Assembly: GCF_004116725.1 (NCBI RefSeq)
Contig: NZ_PDKG01000001.1
Span: 62,001-126,000 of the forward strand
Direction of reading: 5' to 3'
Length of the DNA stretch: 64,000 nucleotides
Source: Arcobacter sp. CECT 8986
GTDB lineage: Bacteria; Campylobacterota; Campylobacteria; Campylobacterales; Arcobacteraceae
Shown: positions 54,781-64,000 of the stretch, piece after piece
Layout: each line of letters begins with the position of its first letter
Numbering within the stretch: position 1 is the first letter of the stretch
Made by a program: the position numbers and the translations under genes
Notes under the pieces: generated by a model
Seen by the model: only the letters and a program-made list of their open reading frames with translations
The model's database searches: none
What the model was told of the DNA's origin: nothing

Positions 54781-54812
54781 AAAAAGAGAAAAAAATAATT
54801 AATTCTCTTTTT
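54781..54812 (-). terminator. Terminator at the end of the ovoA operon
   Basis: AAAAAGAGAA (54781-54790) and TTCTCTTTTT (54803-54812) form a ten-base-pair stem that overlaps the ovoA stop, with T-rich sequence following in the leftward direction. Confidence 0.55.
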
Positions 54813-56895
54813 TCTTCCAAATACTCATTTGTGAAACTGTATGTTGAAATTTTCTTGATGTCTCTTTTATTACAAATAGAACATCAATTAAATCAACTAA
54901 TTCAAATCTATCTTCTAAATTATCTTTTAGTGTTTGTATAGTTTTCACCTCTTTATTCTCTTTATAATATCCACCTAACCAGTTACTTTTTGGTGTATAT
55001 TCTTCAAGCCATGTATAAGGAGATAGTATTACAAATAAACCATTATTATTGACTCTATTAGGAATATCATCTAAGAATTTTTGTGGATAATATAATCTAT
55101 CAATTAAATTTGAACAAAAAATCAAATCATAACCATTATATAGGCTTTTTAGATTACAAGCATCACCTTGCATAAACTCTACTTTTTCTTTAGTATCTTC
55201 AAGTCCCAAATCATCTAATGACACTTTTTTATCGTCAAATATTTCACCTTCAACTCTAACTTTATAAGTTAAGTTATCATATTTTTTTAGTTTTACACCC
55301 ACATTTATAAAGTTTGCACTAAAATCAATTCCTAACACTTTATCAAAAGTTTTTGCCAGTTCAAAAGTACTTCTACCAACAGAACATCCTAAATCCAATG
55401 CGCTATTTGTATTAATATCTTTTAAATATGGTTTTAATAATTCAACAGATTTTTTAGGGAAGTTTTCTACATTAAAGAACTCTTCTCCATAGTGAAACTC
55501 ACAATATTGTGAAATTAGTTCATCTGTTTCATATACATTATCATTTAATTTTGTTCTATATTCATTATCTGATTTTACATATCTAAAACCTGCATGTTGA
55601 AAGAAATGTTTTCTAAATGCATATCTTGCACTTTTTAAAGTCTCATTTCCTAAAGAGATAAAAGAACCGCCTTTCATTAAAGCATGTCTATCATCAAAAG
55701 TTGGAGTAGTAAAATCATCATATGCATTATGTGTTTTAAAATCATCAAAAGGATAAATAGGAGTAATACTCCATTGCCAAACATTTCCTTTTACATCATA
55801 AAAATCGCCAAATTTATATGTATCAACAGGTGTTTGATTAAAATATTTGAAACCTATATTTGCATCTGTATTTTCTGCATCTACATAATCATAAAGTCTA
55901 TAATATTCATCTTCTGTTGGAAGTCTTACTTCATAACCTAATTTTTCACTTTTATATTTACAAAAAGCCTCTGCTTCATAAACATTTATATCAACTGGAT
56001 AATTTAAAGGTAAAGGAACGATATTATTAATCTGTCTTAAATAATACTCATCATCTTTTTTTATCCAAAATGTCGGCATTTTTGCTTGTGTAAAATCAAG
56101 CCATTTCAATCCATCTTTTGAAAAATATTTTAGTTTTGAATATCCTTTATCTTTCACAAACTCTAAAAATTCTCCATTTGATACAAGATATTTGCTGGCT
56201 TTAAAATCTTTGATAGTAGCTTTATGATAAGAAAATTCGTTATCCCAACCATAAAAAATAGGATTTTCTCTATCTTTTTGAAGTATAACTTCTCCACCTT
56301 TTACATCAACTAATTCATTTTGTGGATACTGTTTACTATATTTAGTACAGTAAGAAAATGGTTCTTCTTCTATAAAATGAGAAATATTCAATTCTCTTAA
56401 AAGTACAGAAGATGTTTCAATATGAATATTTTCATGTTCAATTCCCATCAATATAACCCACATAGGACTATCCCAATTTATCGGCAGTGTAAACTCTAGA
56501 TTATCAATAATATCTAAGACAACCTCTTTTACCTCATCTCTATATTTTTTTACCTCATCAAACTCTGGCCACGAATAATTACTACTATTTAAATCATCCC
56601 AGCTCATCTCATCAACACCAATTGCAAAAACTGATTCAAGATTTTCATTTACTCTTTTTGAAAGTAATTTACTAACCATTAGTTTATTTACAAAAAAAGT
56701 AGCAGTATGCCCATAATAAAATATCAAAGGATGTCTTAGTCTATTTGGTTGTTTGTATATTGATTTTTTATCTTTTAGTAAATCAAATAGTTTTTCATCT
56801 AATTCATAAGTTTGAAGAAAATACTTTTTTATCTCTTCTCTTTTTTCTTCAATAGTTCCTTCTTGTAAATTTATGGTATCTGCTCTAAAATTCAT
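54799..56895 (-). CDS. ovoA: OvoA: 5-histidylcysteine sulfoxide synthase with methyltransferase domain
   Basis: Ovothiol biosynthesis enzyme of 698 residues. The N-terminal DinB-like region carries the iron ligands His63 (YYGHTATFF), His154 and His158 (GIEHENIHIE). The central formylglycine-generating-enzyme-type domain includes PVDINVYEAEAFCKYKS, VRLPTEDEYYRL, DVKGNVWQWSITP and HAGFRYV. The C-terminal methyltransferase domain starts near residue 475 with LDLGCSVGRSTFEL and carries the N-pi methylation activity of ovothiol A synthesis. It is last in a four-gene operon. A PLP-type sulfoxide lyase (OvoB) is not seen here. Confidence 0.92.
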   Translation of the reverse strand: MNFRADTINLQEGTIEEKREEIKKYFLQTYELDEKLFDLLKDKKSIYKQPNRLRHPLIFYYGHTATFFVNKLMVSKLLSKRVNENLESVFAIGVDEMSWDDLNSSNYSWPEFDEVKKYRDEVKEVVLDIIDNLEFTLPINWDSPMWVILMGIEHENIHIETSSVLLRELNISHFIEEEPFSYCTKYSKQYPQNELVDVKGGEVILQKDRENPIFYGWDNEFSYHKATIKDFKASKYLVSNGEFLEFVKDKGYSKLKYFSKDGLKWLDFTQAKMPTFWIKKDDEYYLRQINNIVPLPLNYPVDINVYEAEAFCKYKSEKLGYEVRLPTEDEYYRLYDYVDAENTDANIGFKYFNQTPVDTYKFGDFYDVKGNVWQWSITPIYPFDDFKTHNAYDDFTTPTFDDRHALMKGGSFISLGNETLKSARYAFRKHFFQHAGFRYVKSDNEYRTKLNDNVYETDELISQYCEFHYGEEFFNVENFPKKSVELLKPYLKDINTNSALDLGCSVGRSTFELAKTFDKVLGIDFSANFINVGVKLKKYDNLTYKVRVEGEIFDDKKVSLDDLGLEDTKEKVEFMQGDACNLKSLYNGYDLIFCSNLIDRLYYPQKFLDDIPNRVNNNGLFVILSPYTWLEEYTPKSNWLGGYYKENKEVKTIQTLKDNLEDRFELVDLIDVLFVIKETSRKFQHTVSQMSIWKKKEN

Positions 56896-60267: not shown

Positions 60268-60675
60268 ATGAAAGTAGTAACAGGAGTAGTAGGTAATGAT
60301 ATACACGTTGTTGCAAATCGACTAATCGAAATATCGTTACAAGCAAGAGGGTTTGAAGTATTTAATTTGGGAGTTAATACTTACTTAGAAGAGTTTATAG
60401 ACGCAGTTATAGAAACAAATGCCGATATATTATTAATATCATCATTAAACGGTGAAGCAGAAGGCTGGTGTAGAGAGCTAAATATCTTAAAGTCTAAATA
60501 CAAATCTTTAAAAGATGTTGTTTTTATGTTAGGTGGAAACCTAGCAGTGGGAGAAGCAAAGACTGAAGATATCGTTCCAAAGTTTAAAAACTATGGATTT
60601 GATTTAGTTTTTCATCAGGTGGATTTAAATACAGGTTTAGATGAATTAGAAAAATATGTTAAGGCAAAAAAATGA
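60268..60675 (+). CDS. glmS: Glutamate mutase S subunit (B12-binding)
   Basis: The small, cobalamin-binding subunit of methylaspartate (glutamate) mutase, which with the E subunit interconverts glutamate and 3-methylaspartate. The base-off/His-on site is Asp11-x-His13-x-x-Ala16 (GNDIHVVANRL); the usual final Gly of DxHxxG is Ala. LISSLNGEAEGWCREL and FMLGGNLAVGEAKTEDI are the other two cobalamin contacts. The 135-residue length is typical. Overlaps the next gene by four bases. Confidence 0.92.
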   Translation: MKVVTGVVGNDIHVVANRLIEISLQARGFEVFNLGVNTYLEEFIDAVIETNADILLISSLNGEAEGWCRELNILKSKYKSLKDVVFMLGGNLAVGEAKTEDIVPKFKNYGFDLVFHQVDLNTGLDELEKYVKAKK

Positions 60676-62036
60676 GTTTACTGCAAGAAGAGAGAGAAAT
60701 AATTGTCCAAAATGAGTATGCAGATAATTTTGATTTTTCAGAAATAGAAGAGTTTGTAAAAAACGCAAGCAAAAATCTTTTTATCTCACACAATTTTAAA
60801 AATAGCGATAAAATGCTTGTTCAACCAAGAGGTGGTTTTCCTACGTATCAAAAGCAATTTGCATTAAATGAATTTTTTGTAAAAGCAAATGTTGATGTTT
60901 TACCTTTGACTATTGATTCAAATACAAGACTTAATGACTATGCAATGTCTAAAAAAATGTTGAGATTAAGTGAAGAAAATGAAGTAGATATGTTAAATGG
61001 TTATCCACTTGTAAATCATGGATATAGAACAACAAGAAAGATGATTACACACTTTGATAAACCAGTTAGTTTAAGACATGGAACACCAGATGCAAGACTT
61101 TTAGTTGAAACAGCTATTGCTTCAGGTATTTTTGAAATTGAAGGTGGACCAATAACTTATCTTCTACCATATTCAAAAAACTTTCCAATTGACAAAGCAT
61201 TTTTATACTGGAAATATGTAGAAAGAGTTTGTGCAAAATACTCTACTTTAAATGAACCAATAAATAGAGAATCTTTTGGACCACTAACAGCAACACTTGT
61301 TCCACCTTGTATTACTATTGTGATTCAGTTACTTGAGATGCTTCTTTCTTTAGAAGAAGGAGTTAAGTCATTTTCAGTATCTTTTTCACAAAGTGGTTCA
61401 GTAAATCAAGATATAGTAACAAGTGCTGTATTAAAAAAACTTGCTAAATATTATGCAAAACAAATAGATTGTGAAGATGCAAATATTCATCTTGTTTATC
61501 ATCAATGGATGGGAGCATTTCCTTCAAACAAAGACTATTCAGAATCTTTAATAAACACAGCAACAGTAATTGCAAGTTTAGTTGGTGCTGATAAAATCAT
61601 CACAAAAACAAGAGATGAAGCCTTTGGAATTCCTACAAAAGAAGCAAATGCGAAAACAGTAGCAAATACACAATATACACTAAGAATATTAAATGGCTTA
61701 CCAAATATTGTTGATGAGAAAGAAGAAGAGATTCTGACAAAAGAAGTAAAAAGTATAATGGAAGCTGTTTTCAATGATAGTGCAGATACATTATGGAGAA
61801 AAGTATTTAATAGTGTAAAAAATGGAATTATTGATGTTCCTTTCTCTCCTCATATTATTAATAATAATGAAGTAGTAACAGTAAGAGATAAAAACAAAAA
61901 TATAAGAATTATAAAAAGAGGAAATCTTCCAATTAGTGATGAGTGTTTTGAGTATGAAAAAGCACAATGCGATTTAAATAAAGATGCAACATCAATAGTA
62001 AATGATATTATACATGATATAGGAATAATGCAATGA
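60672..62036 (+). CDS. glmE: Glutamate mutase E subunit (catalytic TIM barrel)
   Basis: Substrate-binding subunit of the adenosylcobalamin-dependent mutase. LVQPRGGFPTYQKQFAL, the arginine clamp region VSLRHGTPDARLLVE, FEIEGGPITYLLPYSKN and SVSFSQSGSVNQDI match the MutE/GlmE family. Length 454 is slightly shorter than the clostridial 483. A YHQWMGAFPSNKDYS segment and TKTRDEAFGIPTKEANA further support it. It needs GlmS, and the L protein downstream for reactivation. Confidence 0.93.
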   Translation: MSLLQEEREIIVQNEYADNFDFSEIEEFVKNASKNLFISHNFKNSDKMLVQPRGGFPTYQKQFALNEFFVKANVDVLPLTIDSNTRLNDYAMSKKMLRLSEENEVDMLNGYPLVNHGYRTTRKMITHFDKPVSLRHGTPDARLLVETAIASGIFEIEGGPITYLLPYSKNFPIDKAFLYWKYVERVCAKYSTLNEPINRESFGPLTATLVPPCITIVIQLLEMLLSLEEGVKSFSVSFSQSGSVNQDIVTSAVLKKLAKYYAKQIDCEDANIHLVYHQWMGAFPSNKDYSESLINTATVIASLVGADKIITKTRDEAFGIPTKEANAKTVANTQYTLRILNGLPNIVDEKEEEILTKEVKSIMEAVFNDSADTLWRKVFNSVKNGIIDVPFSPHIINNNEVVTVRDKNKNIRIIKRGNLPISDECFEYEKAQCDLNKDATSIVNDIIHDIGIMQ

Positions 62037-63214
62037 AAAATAGACTATTAATCGATATTGGAAGTACATATTTTAAAGTAAGTGATGCTGAAAATATACA
62101 GCAACACTTTAGAGATTTTAATAAAGATATTTATGATGATTTAAAGTATAAATGTAGTGATATTTTAGAAAAATACAATAAAGATGATGTATATATTTGT
62201 TCATCAGCAAATGGAGGATTGAGCACTTTAATTATAGGAATTACAAACTCTTTTTCTCTAAAATATGCTACAAATATTGCATTTAATTCAGGTATTAATA
62301 TTATTGATACAATTTTATATCAAGATATTGAAAATACAACTGTTCCTAGTGATTTAATTGATGTTGTTATAATAACAGGTGCAATTGATAGTGTAAGCGA
62401 TATATTTGATGAAAAACTATTTAATTACTTAAATGAGTTAAACTACTCAAATATTGTTTATGTAGGAAATAAAAATGATAGTAAATATCTAAGTGAGAAT
62501 ATAGAAAACTTAGTAATTTTACCAAATATTATAAACAACAAACTACAAGTAAATGAGCTGCAATTAAAAGAGTATTTAACAAACCTTTATCAAGCAGATA
62601 TTATGGGTAAAGAAGATATTAAAAATCTATATGCAATTACTGATAATCAAATCTACTCTACTCCATACATAGTAAATAAAACATTGCCTTTAATAAATAC
62701 AATGTTTAAAGTTGCTGACCCGTTTATCTTAGTTGATATTGGTGGAGCTACGACAGATATTCATTATAGTACTACACTGATAAATGACAATATGGTTAAA
62801 GATAGTGAATATGATAGATTGGTATTCAAAAAACTTGGTGTATTTAAATCAAAAGAGTCTTTAATATTTGCAGCAAAAAACAATGAATTTGTTTATGAGT
62901 TATTATCTTTTTTAAATGTAACAGAACATATATTTGAAGAGCAAAGTGATAAAGCTTTAAAAACTTTAATGCAACTAGCAATATTTTTAGTTTTATATAA
63001 AGTATCAAAAGCACACCCTTTATATATAAATCTTAAATTAGATTTATTAAAATCTGTTGTATTAACAGGTGGAATAACAAAAGTTCTAAAACAAGAAGAA
63101 GTTGAAAGTATTATTGGATTTTTCTATAAAAAGATTTTAAGCAGTAGCGTAAAACCAAATATCATATTAGATAGTAATTATGAGATTTGGACTTTAGGTA
63201 TAACACAAAAATAA
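62033..63214 (+). CDS. glmL: Glutamate mutase reactivase GlmL (MutL)
   Basis: ASKHA-type ATPase thought to reactivate the mutase by exchanging inactive cobalamin. Phosphate motifs are LLIDIGSTYFKVSDA at the start and FILVDIGGATTDIHYS near residue 240, with the adenosine motif VVLTGGITKVL near residue 343. Length 393 is a little shorter than the 450-460 residues of clostridial MutL. It overlaps glmE by four bases and is followed nine bases later by an AMP-ligase gene. Confidence 0.9.
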   Translation: MKNRLLIDIGSTYFKVSDAENIQQHFRDFNKDIYDDLKYKCSDILEKYNKDDVYICSSANGGLSTLIIGITNSFSLKYATNIAFNSGINIIDTILYQDIENTTVPSDLIDVVIITGAIDSVSDIFDEKLFNYLNELNYSNIVYVGNKNDSKYLSENIENLVILPNIINNKLQVNELQLKEYLTNLYQADIMGKEDIKNLYAITDNQIYSTPYIVNKTLPLINTMFKVADPFILVDIGGATTDIHYSTTLINDNMVKDSEYDRLVFKKLGVFKSKESLIFAAKNNEFVYELLSFLNVTEHIFEEQSDKALKTLMQLAIFLVLYKVSKAHPLYINLKLDLLKSVVLTGGITKVLKQEEVESIIGFFYKKILSSSVKPNIILDSNYEIWTLGITQK

Positions 63215-63223
63215 GGAGCTAAA

Positions 63224-64000
63224 ATGTCGATAAATTGTATAAGAACACTATTAGAAGATGCTAATGTATCTCACAATAATAAAGTTGCTTTAATTCATGA
63301 TGATTCACAAATTACATATGGTGAACTATTTACAAAAGTAAATCAAGTAGCATTTTATTTAAAAGAGTTAGACCTTCCAAAAGGTAGTAGAATTGGGATT
63401 TACTCGAATAAATCAATTGACCAAGTTATTGCTATTTTAGCTATTTTATCAACTGATTATATTTTAGTTCCACTAACAAGAATGCTTCAACCAGAACAAG
63501 TAAAATATATTATTGATGATTGTGATATAAAGTGTATCATCACAGACAAAGTTAAAATAGAAAAAATCGAAGAGATAGATTTTACTGGACAAATAATTTC
63601 ATATGAAAGAACAGCTGATGATTTAGCTTCATTTGAAGAGATTTATAAATATTATAACAAACCTTACAATTATGATGTAAATGGACATGATAATGCTGTA
63701 ATTACATACTCTTTTGGACTAACTGGAAAACCAAAAGGAATAGTAATCTCTCATAGAAATTTAATAGATTCTGCAAGAGTTGTATCTAAATATCTAAAAT
63801 TAGAAGAAGATGATATTATCTCTGGATTACTTATATTCAATCTTGATTATGGATTAAATCAAATCTTTTGTAGTCTATACAAAAGAGCAACATTAGCTCT
63901 TCATAGATTTATACTACCAAATGAGTTTTTCAATCATATTATAAAAGATAAAGTTACAGTACTTCCACTTATGCCTATTCATCTAACTTTGATGTTTGAT
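63224..64000 (+). CDS. AMP-dependent acyl/amino-acid ligase (N-terminal part, cut by window edge)
   Basis: The first 259 residues of an adenylate-forming enzyme: ITYGELFTKVNQVAFYL is motif A1-like, IGIYSNKSIDQVIAILAIL follows, and AVITYSFGLTGKPKGIVISH is the P-loop (A3), where the usual SG(S/T)TG is FGLTG. ATG at 63224 follows AAGGAGCTAAA and lies nine bases after glmL, so it belongs to the glutamate mutase operon. It may activate 3-methylaspartate or a derived beta-amino acid, as VinN does in vicenistatin synthesis; a carrier protein would be expected further right. Confidence 0.88.
   Translation, partial: MSINCIRTLLEDANVSHNNKVALIHDDSQITYGELFTKVNQVAFYLKELDLPKGSRIGIYSNKSIDQVIAILAILSTDYILVPLTRMLQPEQVKYIIDDCDIKCIITDKVKIEKIEEIDFTGQIISYERTADDLASFEEIYKYYNKPYNYDVNGHDNAVITYSFGLTGKPKGIVISHRNLIDSARVVSKYLKLEEDDIISGLLIFNLDYGLNQIFCSLYKRATLALHRFILPNEFFNHIIKDKVTVLPLMPIHLTLMFD

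Follow-up and report, generated by a model that had tools for sequence, protein, structure and literature searches.

A glutamate mutase operon with a predicted 3-methylaspartate-binding ligase recurs in Campylobacterota and Gammaproteobacteria

At the right-hand end of the window, by which we mean the whole 64,000-nucleotide stretch analysed from Arcobacter sp. CECT 8986 (G000:C1:62001-126000, in a source genome of 2.65 Mb and 36 contigs), four genes follow one another in the order S-E-L-ligase: the two subunits of a glutamate mutase, a GlmL-like protein and an AMP-ligase (Table 1). A first-pass annotation, made from the letters and open reading frames (ORFs) alone, had already placed these four genes here, with the ligase nine bases behind L, and the ORF coordinates and family matches agree. 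It had also called the mutase genes fused, but they are separate genes with 4-base overlaps between S and E (60672-60675) and between E and L (62033-62036), and the L-to-ligase spacer occupies 63215-63223. The DNA to the right of the window was also examined; there the ligase gene ends at about 64798 in window-equivalent numbering (genome C1:125224-126798), giving a full protein of 524 amino acids. Its nearest named relative is that of Arcobacter sp. CECT 8985 (91%), in keeping with the earlier guess of a Campylobacterota-type genome.

Table 1. The mutase-ligase cassette and its divergent RraA-type neighbour, in window coordinates
Feature	Position	Strand	Family match and remarks
RraA-type protein, 159 amino acids	59666..60145	-	PF03737 119 bits, NF006875 141 bits; divergent from the operon
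glmS-type B12-binding glutamate mutase subunit, 135 amino acids	60268..60675	+	NF002612 163 bits, above cut-off
glmE-type catalytic glutamate mutase subunit, 454 amino acids	60672..62036	+	PF06368 392 bits
GlmL/MutL-type ASKHA protein, 393 amino acids	62033..63214	+	PF13941 100 bits, E 1.8e-28; divergent and short
AMP-ligase/adenylation-type enzyme, first 259 of 524 amino acids in the window	63224..64000	+	PF00501 219 bits

The mutase genes keep the residues expected of an active enzyme. GlmE falls slightly below the cut-off of TIGR01503 (376 bits against 390) and aligns to the Clostridium cochlearium structures 6h9e/1cb7 with an E-value of 3e-80. In that enzyme we take Arg66, Arg100, Arg149, Glu171, Tyr177, Tyr181, Lys326 and Glu330 to be the substrate-binding residues; the alignment shows all eight counterparts kept (R53, R86, R135, E157, Y163, Y167, K312 and E316), as are the known cofactor contacts, and the active-site residues are invariant among 17 diverse orthologues. 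GlmS aligns to C. cochlearium GlmS (1be1; E 2e-22), with a DxHxxA motif in place of DxHxxG, so that D11 and the axial H13 are kept and the final Gly has become Ala. Because these residues are kept in both subunits, S and E likely encode a functional glutamate mutase (EC 5.4.99.1). The GlmL-like protein scores only 81 bits against an NCBIfam GlmL cut-off of 475, and its nucleotide motifs (D8..K15, D235-IGGATTD-242 and T345-GGI) are invariant in the alignment; it is presumably the mutase reactivase. In comparisons that drew on plasmid-borne homologues, GlmE is nearer to the fermentation type (34-38% identity) than to the Streptomyces, or actinomycete, type (26-31%). Streptomyces plasmids (L077, L078 and L211) have mutase S/E genes next to genes for an oxygenase, an aspartate kinase and an aspartate-semialdehyde dehydrogenase, a further setting in which the use of methylaspartate mutase is uncharacterised, and on a Methylobacter plasmid (L076:6895-11254) a glmE-like 'hypothetical protein' and a B12-binding protein adjoin an asparagine synthetase A-like gene.

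The first-pass annotation had expected an unusual biosynthetic cluster for a Campylobacterota-type genome, but the operon is widespread and no peculiarity of the source genome. Among 299 sampled genomes of the source order, GlmE occurs in 61 (about 20%), spread over 24 of 81 genera. Ligase orthologues were counted at an identity of at least 58%, a threshold one broad step above the unrelated ligases near 30%, and were present in all 61 of these genomes and in one genome without GlmE (p 2e-63). The S-E-L-ligase order is kept across differing genomic contexts in this order, and cassettes that are broken up or divided between contigs, as in G011, G163 and G117, still have both of their ends. In a scan of named genomes, ligase orthologues at 70-75% identity were found in Colwellia, Thalassotalea, Neptuniibacter, Granulosicoccaceae, Haliea, Vibrio hannami, the marine gammaproteobacterium HTCC2143 and one Rhodothermales metagenome-assembled genome (MAG), and the same gene order was seen at 63 of the 64 scanned loci with enough sequence. 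Finding the four genes in this order in dozens of genomes, in several families and in another phylum excludes a chance origin of the operon. The carriers fall mainly into two groups of mostly marine bacteria, the Campylobacterota and the Gammaproteobacteria. Many Campylobacterota copies of the ligase are only 59-67% identical to the window ligase, below the values of the copies from these scanned genomes, which suggests that the cassette has spread by horizontal transfer. We found no description of this gene combination in the literature: no paper joined 'glutamate mutase' with Arcobacter and, for Campylobacter, neither term stood in a title or abstract.

The cassette has also been altered in places. 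One genome of the same genus without glmE (G132) keeps the RraA-type gene and glmS (97%), followed by a 67-residue in-frame chimera of the glmE start and the ligase end (L205:6273-6476), a clean natural deletion by which E, L and the ligase were lost together. In two further genomes ORFs are inserted within the cassette (at L071:8331-9410 and, in L160, a 545-residue ORF between L and the ligase), apparently with no loss of flanking cassette genes.

The RraA-type protein is a member of the module by co-inheritance. Its gene diverges from the cassette in the source genome and most Campylobacterota carriers and lies at 55 of the 64 scanned loci; at least one apparent absence was an ORF-calling artefact (the gene is present beside the L148 cassette). 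Across the 299 genomes, RraA and glmE occur together in 59, glmE alone in 2 and RraA alone in 5 (Fisher p 7e-54), and the association holds also where the two genes are far apart or on different contigs; a scan of these unlinked RraA loci for further partners gave nothing consistent. The window protein shares the fold (class II pyruvate aldolase / oxaloacetate decarboxylase) and the Arg-Asp pair of the HMG/CHA aldolase - RraA family, within which it belongs to a subgroup of its own that goes with the mutase operon. This pair, R97-D98, is invariant in 83 sequences and is, we assume, part of the RraA / HMG-CHA aldolase active site. An AspC/TyrB-type transaminase gene flanks RraA at 21 loci, all of them outside the Arcobacter-type loci. 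In the order of Neptuniibacter the association is sharp: 4 of 146 genomes have the ligase orthologue, and exactly those four hold a second RraA (69-99% identical to the cassette type, every other RraA being at or below 40%) and a dedicated transaminase (75-100%, all others at or below 57%), both adjoining the cassette. RraA-fold enzymes can decarboxylate oxaloacetate via the pyruvate enolate (PMC5065237). A second RraA paralogue of the source genome (52%; L209, G000:C2:231691-232170) has a carbonic anhydrase and a biotin carboxylase of the pyruvate carboxylase type as its neighbours, which fit oxaloacetate chemistry for proteins of this type.

The best NCBIfam match of the ligase is TIGR03098, the exosortase A-associated ligase, at 437.6 bits and so below the cut-off of 592.35. 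The adenylation enzymes of two Streptomyces polyketide synthase (PKS) clusters that contain a mutase of this kind served as a positive control and are orthologues of VinN, one of them scoring 642 bits to the VinN structure 3wvn; the window ligase is only 22.5% identical to such VinN orthologues and is not one of them. In VinN the contacts and pocket residues for 3-methylaspartate are reported, in a review, to be D230, F231, S299, K330 and R331 (PMC11253843). The corresponding positions of the window ligase hold D208, Y209, S280, F311 and R312, a Pro, a Thr and a Met are also common to both, and the alignment of the shortened loop with the VinN orthologues is gap-free and in the same register. 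The pocket therefore agrees far better than the protein as a whole. Across 119 orthologues, drawn from two phyla and the Rhodothermales MAG, there is no variation at D208, Y209, N212, T278, S280, M304, R312 and S313, and the exosortase ligases share with this pocket only the Asp, the Met and the Arg-Ser pair. The comparison with VinN, which the first-pass annotation had put forward as a check, thus gives a pocket that resembles the 3-methylaspartate pocket of VinN, not one for a fatty or aromatic acid, and the prediction that the ligase binds 3-methylaspartate is well supported by the residue match and its invariance.

Its adenylation motifs are partly atypical. The ATP-binding A3 loop reads Y-S-F-G-x-[ST]-G, against the usual Y-T-S-G-[ST]-T-G, with Phe for Ser in 118 of the 119 orthologues, and conservation of the P-loop core G-x-[ST]-G-x-P-[KR]-G is largely maintained. 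At the A10 lysine position (K510), 62 of 118 orthologues have Lys and 56 another residue, although 117 of them have a Lys no more than three residues away. E309, D403, R418 and K424 (ribose, hinge and A8 residues) are invariant, and the key A5, A7 and A8 residues are kept. Given the atypical ATP loop and A10 position, adenylation by the ligase is only putative. The AlphaFold2 (AF2) model (pLDDT 83.5) superposes on VinN with bound 3-methylaspartate (3wv5) at Z 44.0 and a root-mean-square deviation of 2.3 Å over 377 residues; VIA-align places VinN fifth, tied with many ANL enzymes, so the fold alone does not tell the substrate.

The vicenistatin-type cassettes of actinomycetes (VinH/VinI, VinN, VinL and VinO) likewise set mutase S/E genes beside an adenylation enzyme, with key pocket residues nearly identical to those of the window ligase, and in vicenistatin synthesis VinN loads the acyl carrier protein (ACP) VinL and VinO acts as the decarboxylase (PMC11284099). 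The window operon differs in having GlmL, RraA and, in some carriers, the transaminase, and in lacking an ACP, a VinO-type decarboxylase and a PKS. Genes read beyond the window include no ACP, PKS, non-ribosomal peptide synthetase (NRPS), ammonia-lyase or mesaconase downstream of the ligase; the genes there are for a cytochrome c553-like protein, a GGDEF protein (encoded on the opposite strand), a protein of NlpC/P60 type and a pump of AcrB type. In a whole-genome profile search the source genome had no second ACP and no VinO-type decarboxylase: its one PP-binding protein is the fatty-acid AcpP, between fabG- and fabF-like genes, and the VinO-family model TIGR03099 finds only lysA-type and speA-type genes. 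The logic of vicenistatin synthesis is therefore without its partners here. Of the earlier proposal, an actinomycete-type cluster built on 3-methylaspartate, the substrate has stood, through the pocket match, and the cluster has not: the DNA right of 64000, where it had advised looking for an ACP, a pyridoxal phosphate (PLP) decarboxylase, a PKS or an NRPS, has none next to the operon. Its contrast with glutamate fermentation was supported: neither methylaspartate ammonia-lyase nor mesaconase lies beside the operon.

The exosortase A system (TIGR03098 with TIGR03099 and an ACP, in exopolysaccharide clusters) contains the closest family to the ligase (35% identity, 438 bits). Both have an M-[HY]-GLTEAFRSTY loop; the pockets differ (DASTATMRS in TIGR03098, DYNPTSMRS in the window ligase), as do the partners, and no exosortase context was seen here. 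On plasmids of Aureimonas and Sinorhizobium the TIGR03098 ligase stands in polysaccharide clusters beside an ACP and, in Aureimonas, also a PLP decarboxylase. This set resembles the VinN/VinO/VinL trio (L074:9871-14792, L075:9926-13056; L212:12192-13448), and against TIGR03099 the macrolactam decarboxylase reaches 266 bits; in such exosortase ligase clusters an amino acid may be loaded and decarboxylated to decorate a glycan.

We tentatively propose, with somewhat less than even confidence, that the cassette forms a conserved and mobile module of metabolism devoted to 3-methylaspartate, in which carbon would pass from glutamate through 3-methylaspartate and 3-methyloxaloacetate to 2-oxobutyrate and the ligase would bind 3-methylaspartate. 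The operon, its conservation and co-inheritance, the preserved mutase active site and the VinN-like pocket are observed; we infer each of these reactions, the direction of flow, the product and any activity of the ligase. S and E would form the adenosylcobalamin-dependent glutamate mutase, converting L-glutamate to (2S,3S)-3-methylaspartate, with L keeping the mutase active. A transaminase would then yield 3-methyloxaloacetate; this would be the dedicated AspC/TyrB-type enzyme in many Gammaproteobacteria and presumably a housekeeping one in Campylobacterota. The RraA-type protein would decarboxylate 3-methyloxaloacetate, its putative substrate, to 2-oxobutyrate and so pull the unfavourable mutase equilibrium. 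The ligase, holding 3-methylaspartate in its VinN-like pocket, may activate it towards a side product, or may bind this substrate as a protein that controls the mutase or works as its partner. The shared phyletic pattern of E, ligase and RraA, also where they are unlinked, supports the route, as do the dedicated RraA and transaminase of exactly the four carriers in the order of Neptuniibacter, the kept substrate residues of the mutase, the pocket match, the oxaloacetate decarboxylation known for RraA-fold aldolases and the want of carrier-protein and decarboxylase partners for a VinN-type path in the source genome. Several points weigh against it. The 2-oxobutyrate route leaves the invariant VinN-type pocket unexplained, RraA proteins are also known in non-catalytic roles, and none of the Campylobacterota was found to have the gamma-type transaminase, so that transamination, if it occurs, is left to a housekeeping enzyme. 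In addition, threonine dehydratase IlvA exceeds the TIGR01127 cut-off in the source genome and in almost every carrier, and all 14 gammaproteobacterial carriers searched have IlvA by TIGR01124; a further source of 2-oxobutyrate is thus not obviously needed. Isoleucine sparing or propionyl supply is a possible purpose of the route. The fuller version of the proposal, a horizontally spread five- or six-gene pathway from glutamate to 2-oxobutyrate controlled by a relative of adenylating enzymes that has been recruited to bind 3-methylaspartate in partnership with the mutase, we consider unlikely as a whole.

The ligase gives rise to two other explanations. It could act as VinN does, adenylating the 4-carboxylate of 3-methylaspartate in the manner of a beta-amino acid and handing it to coenzyme A, AcpP or an amine. 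The product would be a small 3-methylaspartyl metabolite, and the part of RraA and the transaminase would be confined to feeding glutamate (aspartate and 2-oxoglutarate giving glutamate, with oxaloacetate removed) or clearing overflow. The pocket code nearly that of VinN, the common loop register, the invariant E309, D403, R418 and K424, and the ACP that adjoins its nearest family (with an annotated PLP decarboxylase in one of the two plasmid cases) make this possible. However, the operon has neither an additional ACP or decarboxylase nor an enzyme for condensation or release, the genome offers no ACP or decarboxylase of VinO type, and the A3 Phe and the inconstant A10 Lys speak against it, the latter tempered by the nearby Lys. 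Alternatively, the ligase may have no catalytic activity and serve mutase and reactivase as a regulator or assembly partner that binds the substrate; this is compatible with the proposed route for the other genes. An invariant ligand pocket in a protein whose P-loop is relaxed and whose A10 Lys is not fixed, a gene directly behind that of the reactivase and the lack of an acceptor partner would suit such a role. We nevertheless hold it doubtful, as the P-loop core is mostly kept together with the A5, A7 and A8 residues, and the Lys in the A10 loop of nearly every orthologue weakens the case for a dead enzyme made from the missing A10 Lys.

Two explanations from known metabolism fare worse. The formation of 2-oxobutyrate from glutamate is the textbook 'isoleucine biosynthesis III', and a glutamate mutase, a transaminase and an oxaloacetate-decarboxylase-like protein are the gene set needed for it, so the module might replace threonine dehydratase in making the isoleucine precursor. 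The presence of IlvA in carriers of both groups makes this improbable, and we rejected it. A classical use, either for the glutamate fermentation of clostridia or for the methylaspartate cycle of haloarchaea, with the ammonia-lyase and other enzymes elsewhere in the genome, would accord with the nearness of GlmE to the fermentation type and with the presence of GlmL; the clostridial system has the same three-protein mutase with the same active-site residues, and differs from the window operon, where the gene order is S-E-L. Yet ammonia-lyase, mesaconase and citramalate lyase were absent from the neighbourhoods examined (ammonia-lyase was not searched for genome-wide), and the co-varying partners are the ligase and RraA instead, so that we regard this use as very improbable.

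The proposed 3-methylaspartate module, with its known enzyme families in a seemingly undescribed combination, looks like a metabolic module rather than an antibiotic cluster. Glutamate mutase would then have a common and apparently undescribed role beyond those in fermentation, antibiotics and the assimilation of acetate by haloarchaea. To our knowledge, the route from glutamate to 2-oxobutyrate has long been listed without genes, and the gene set supplies candidate enzymes for it. It also presents an adenylating enzyme with a 3-methylaspartate pocket and no obvious acceptor.

Among the downstream neighbours of the cassette, yidD, yidC, jag, trmE and the cytochrome c553 gene were considered as module members and dropped as lineage-specific. 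Elsewhere in the window, an OvoA-like protein with DinB, FGE-sulfatase and methyltransferase domains, encoded at 54799-56895 on the minus strand, is a candidate ovothiol synthase.

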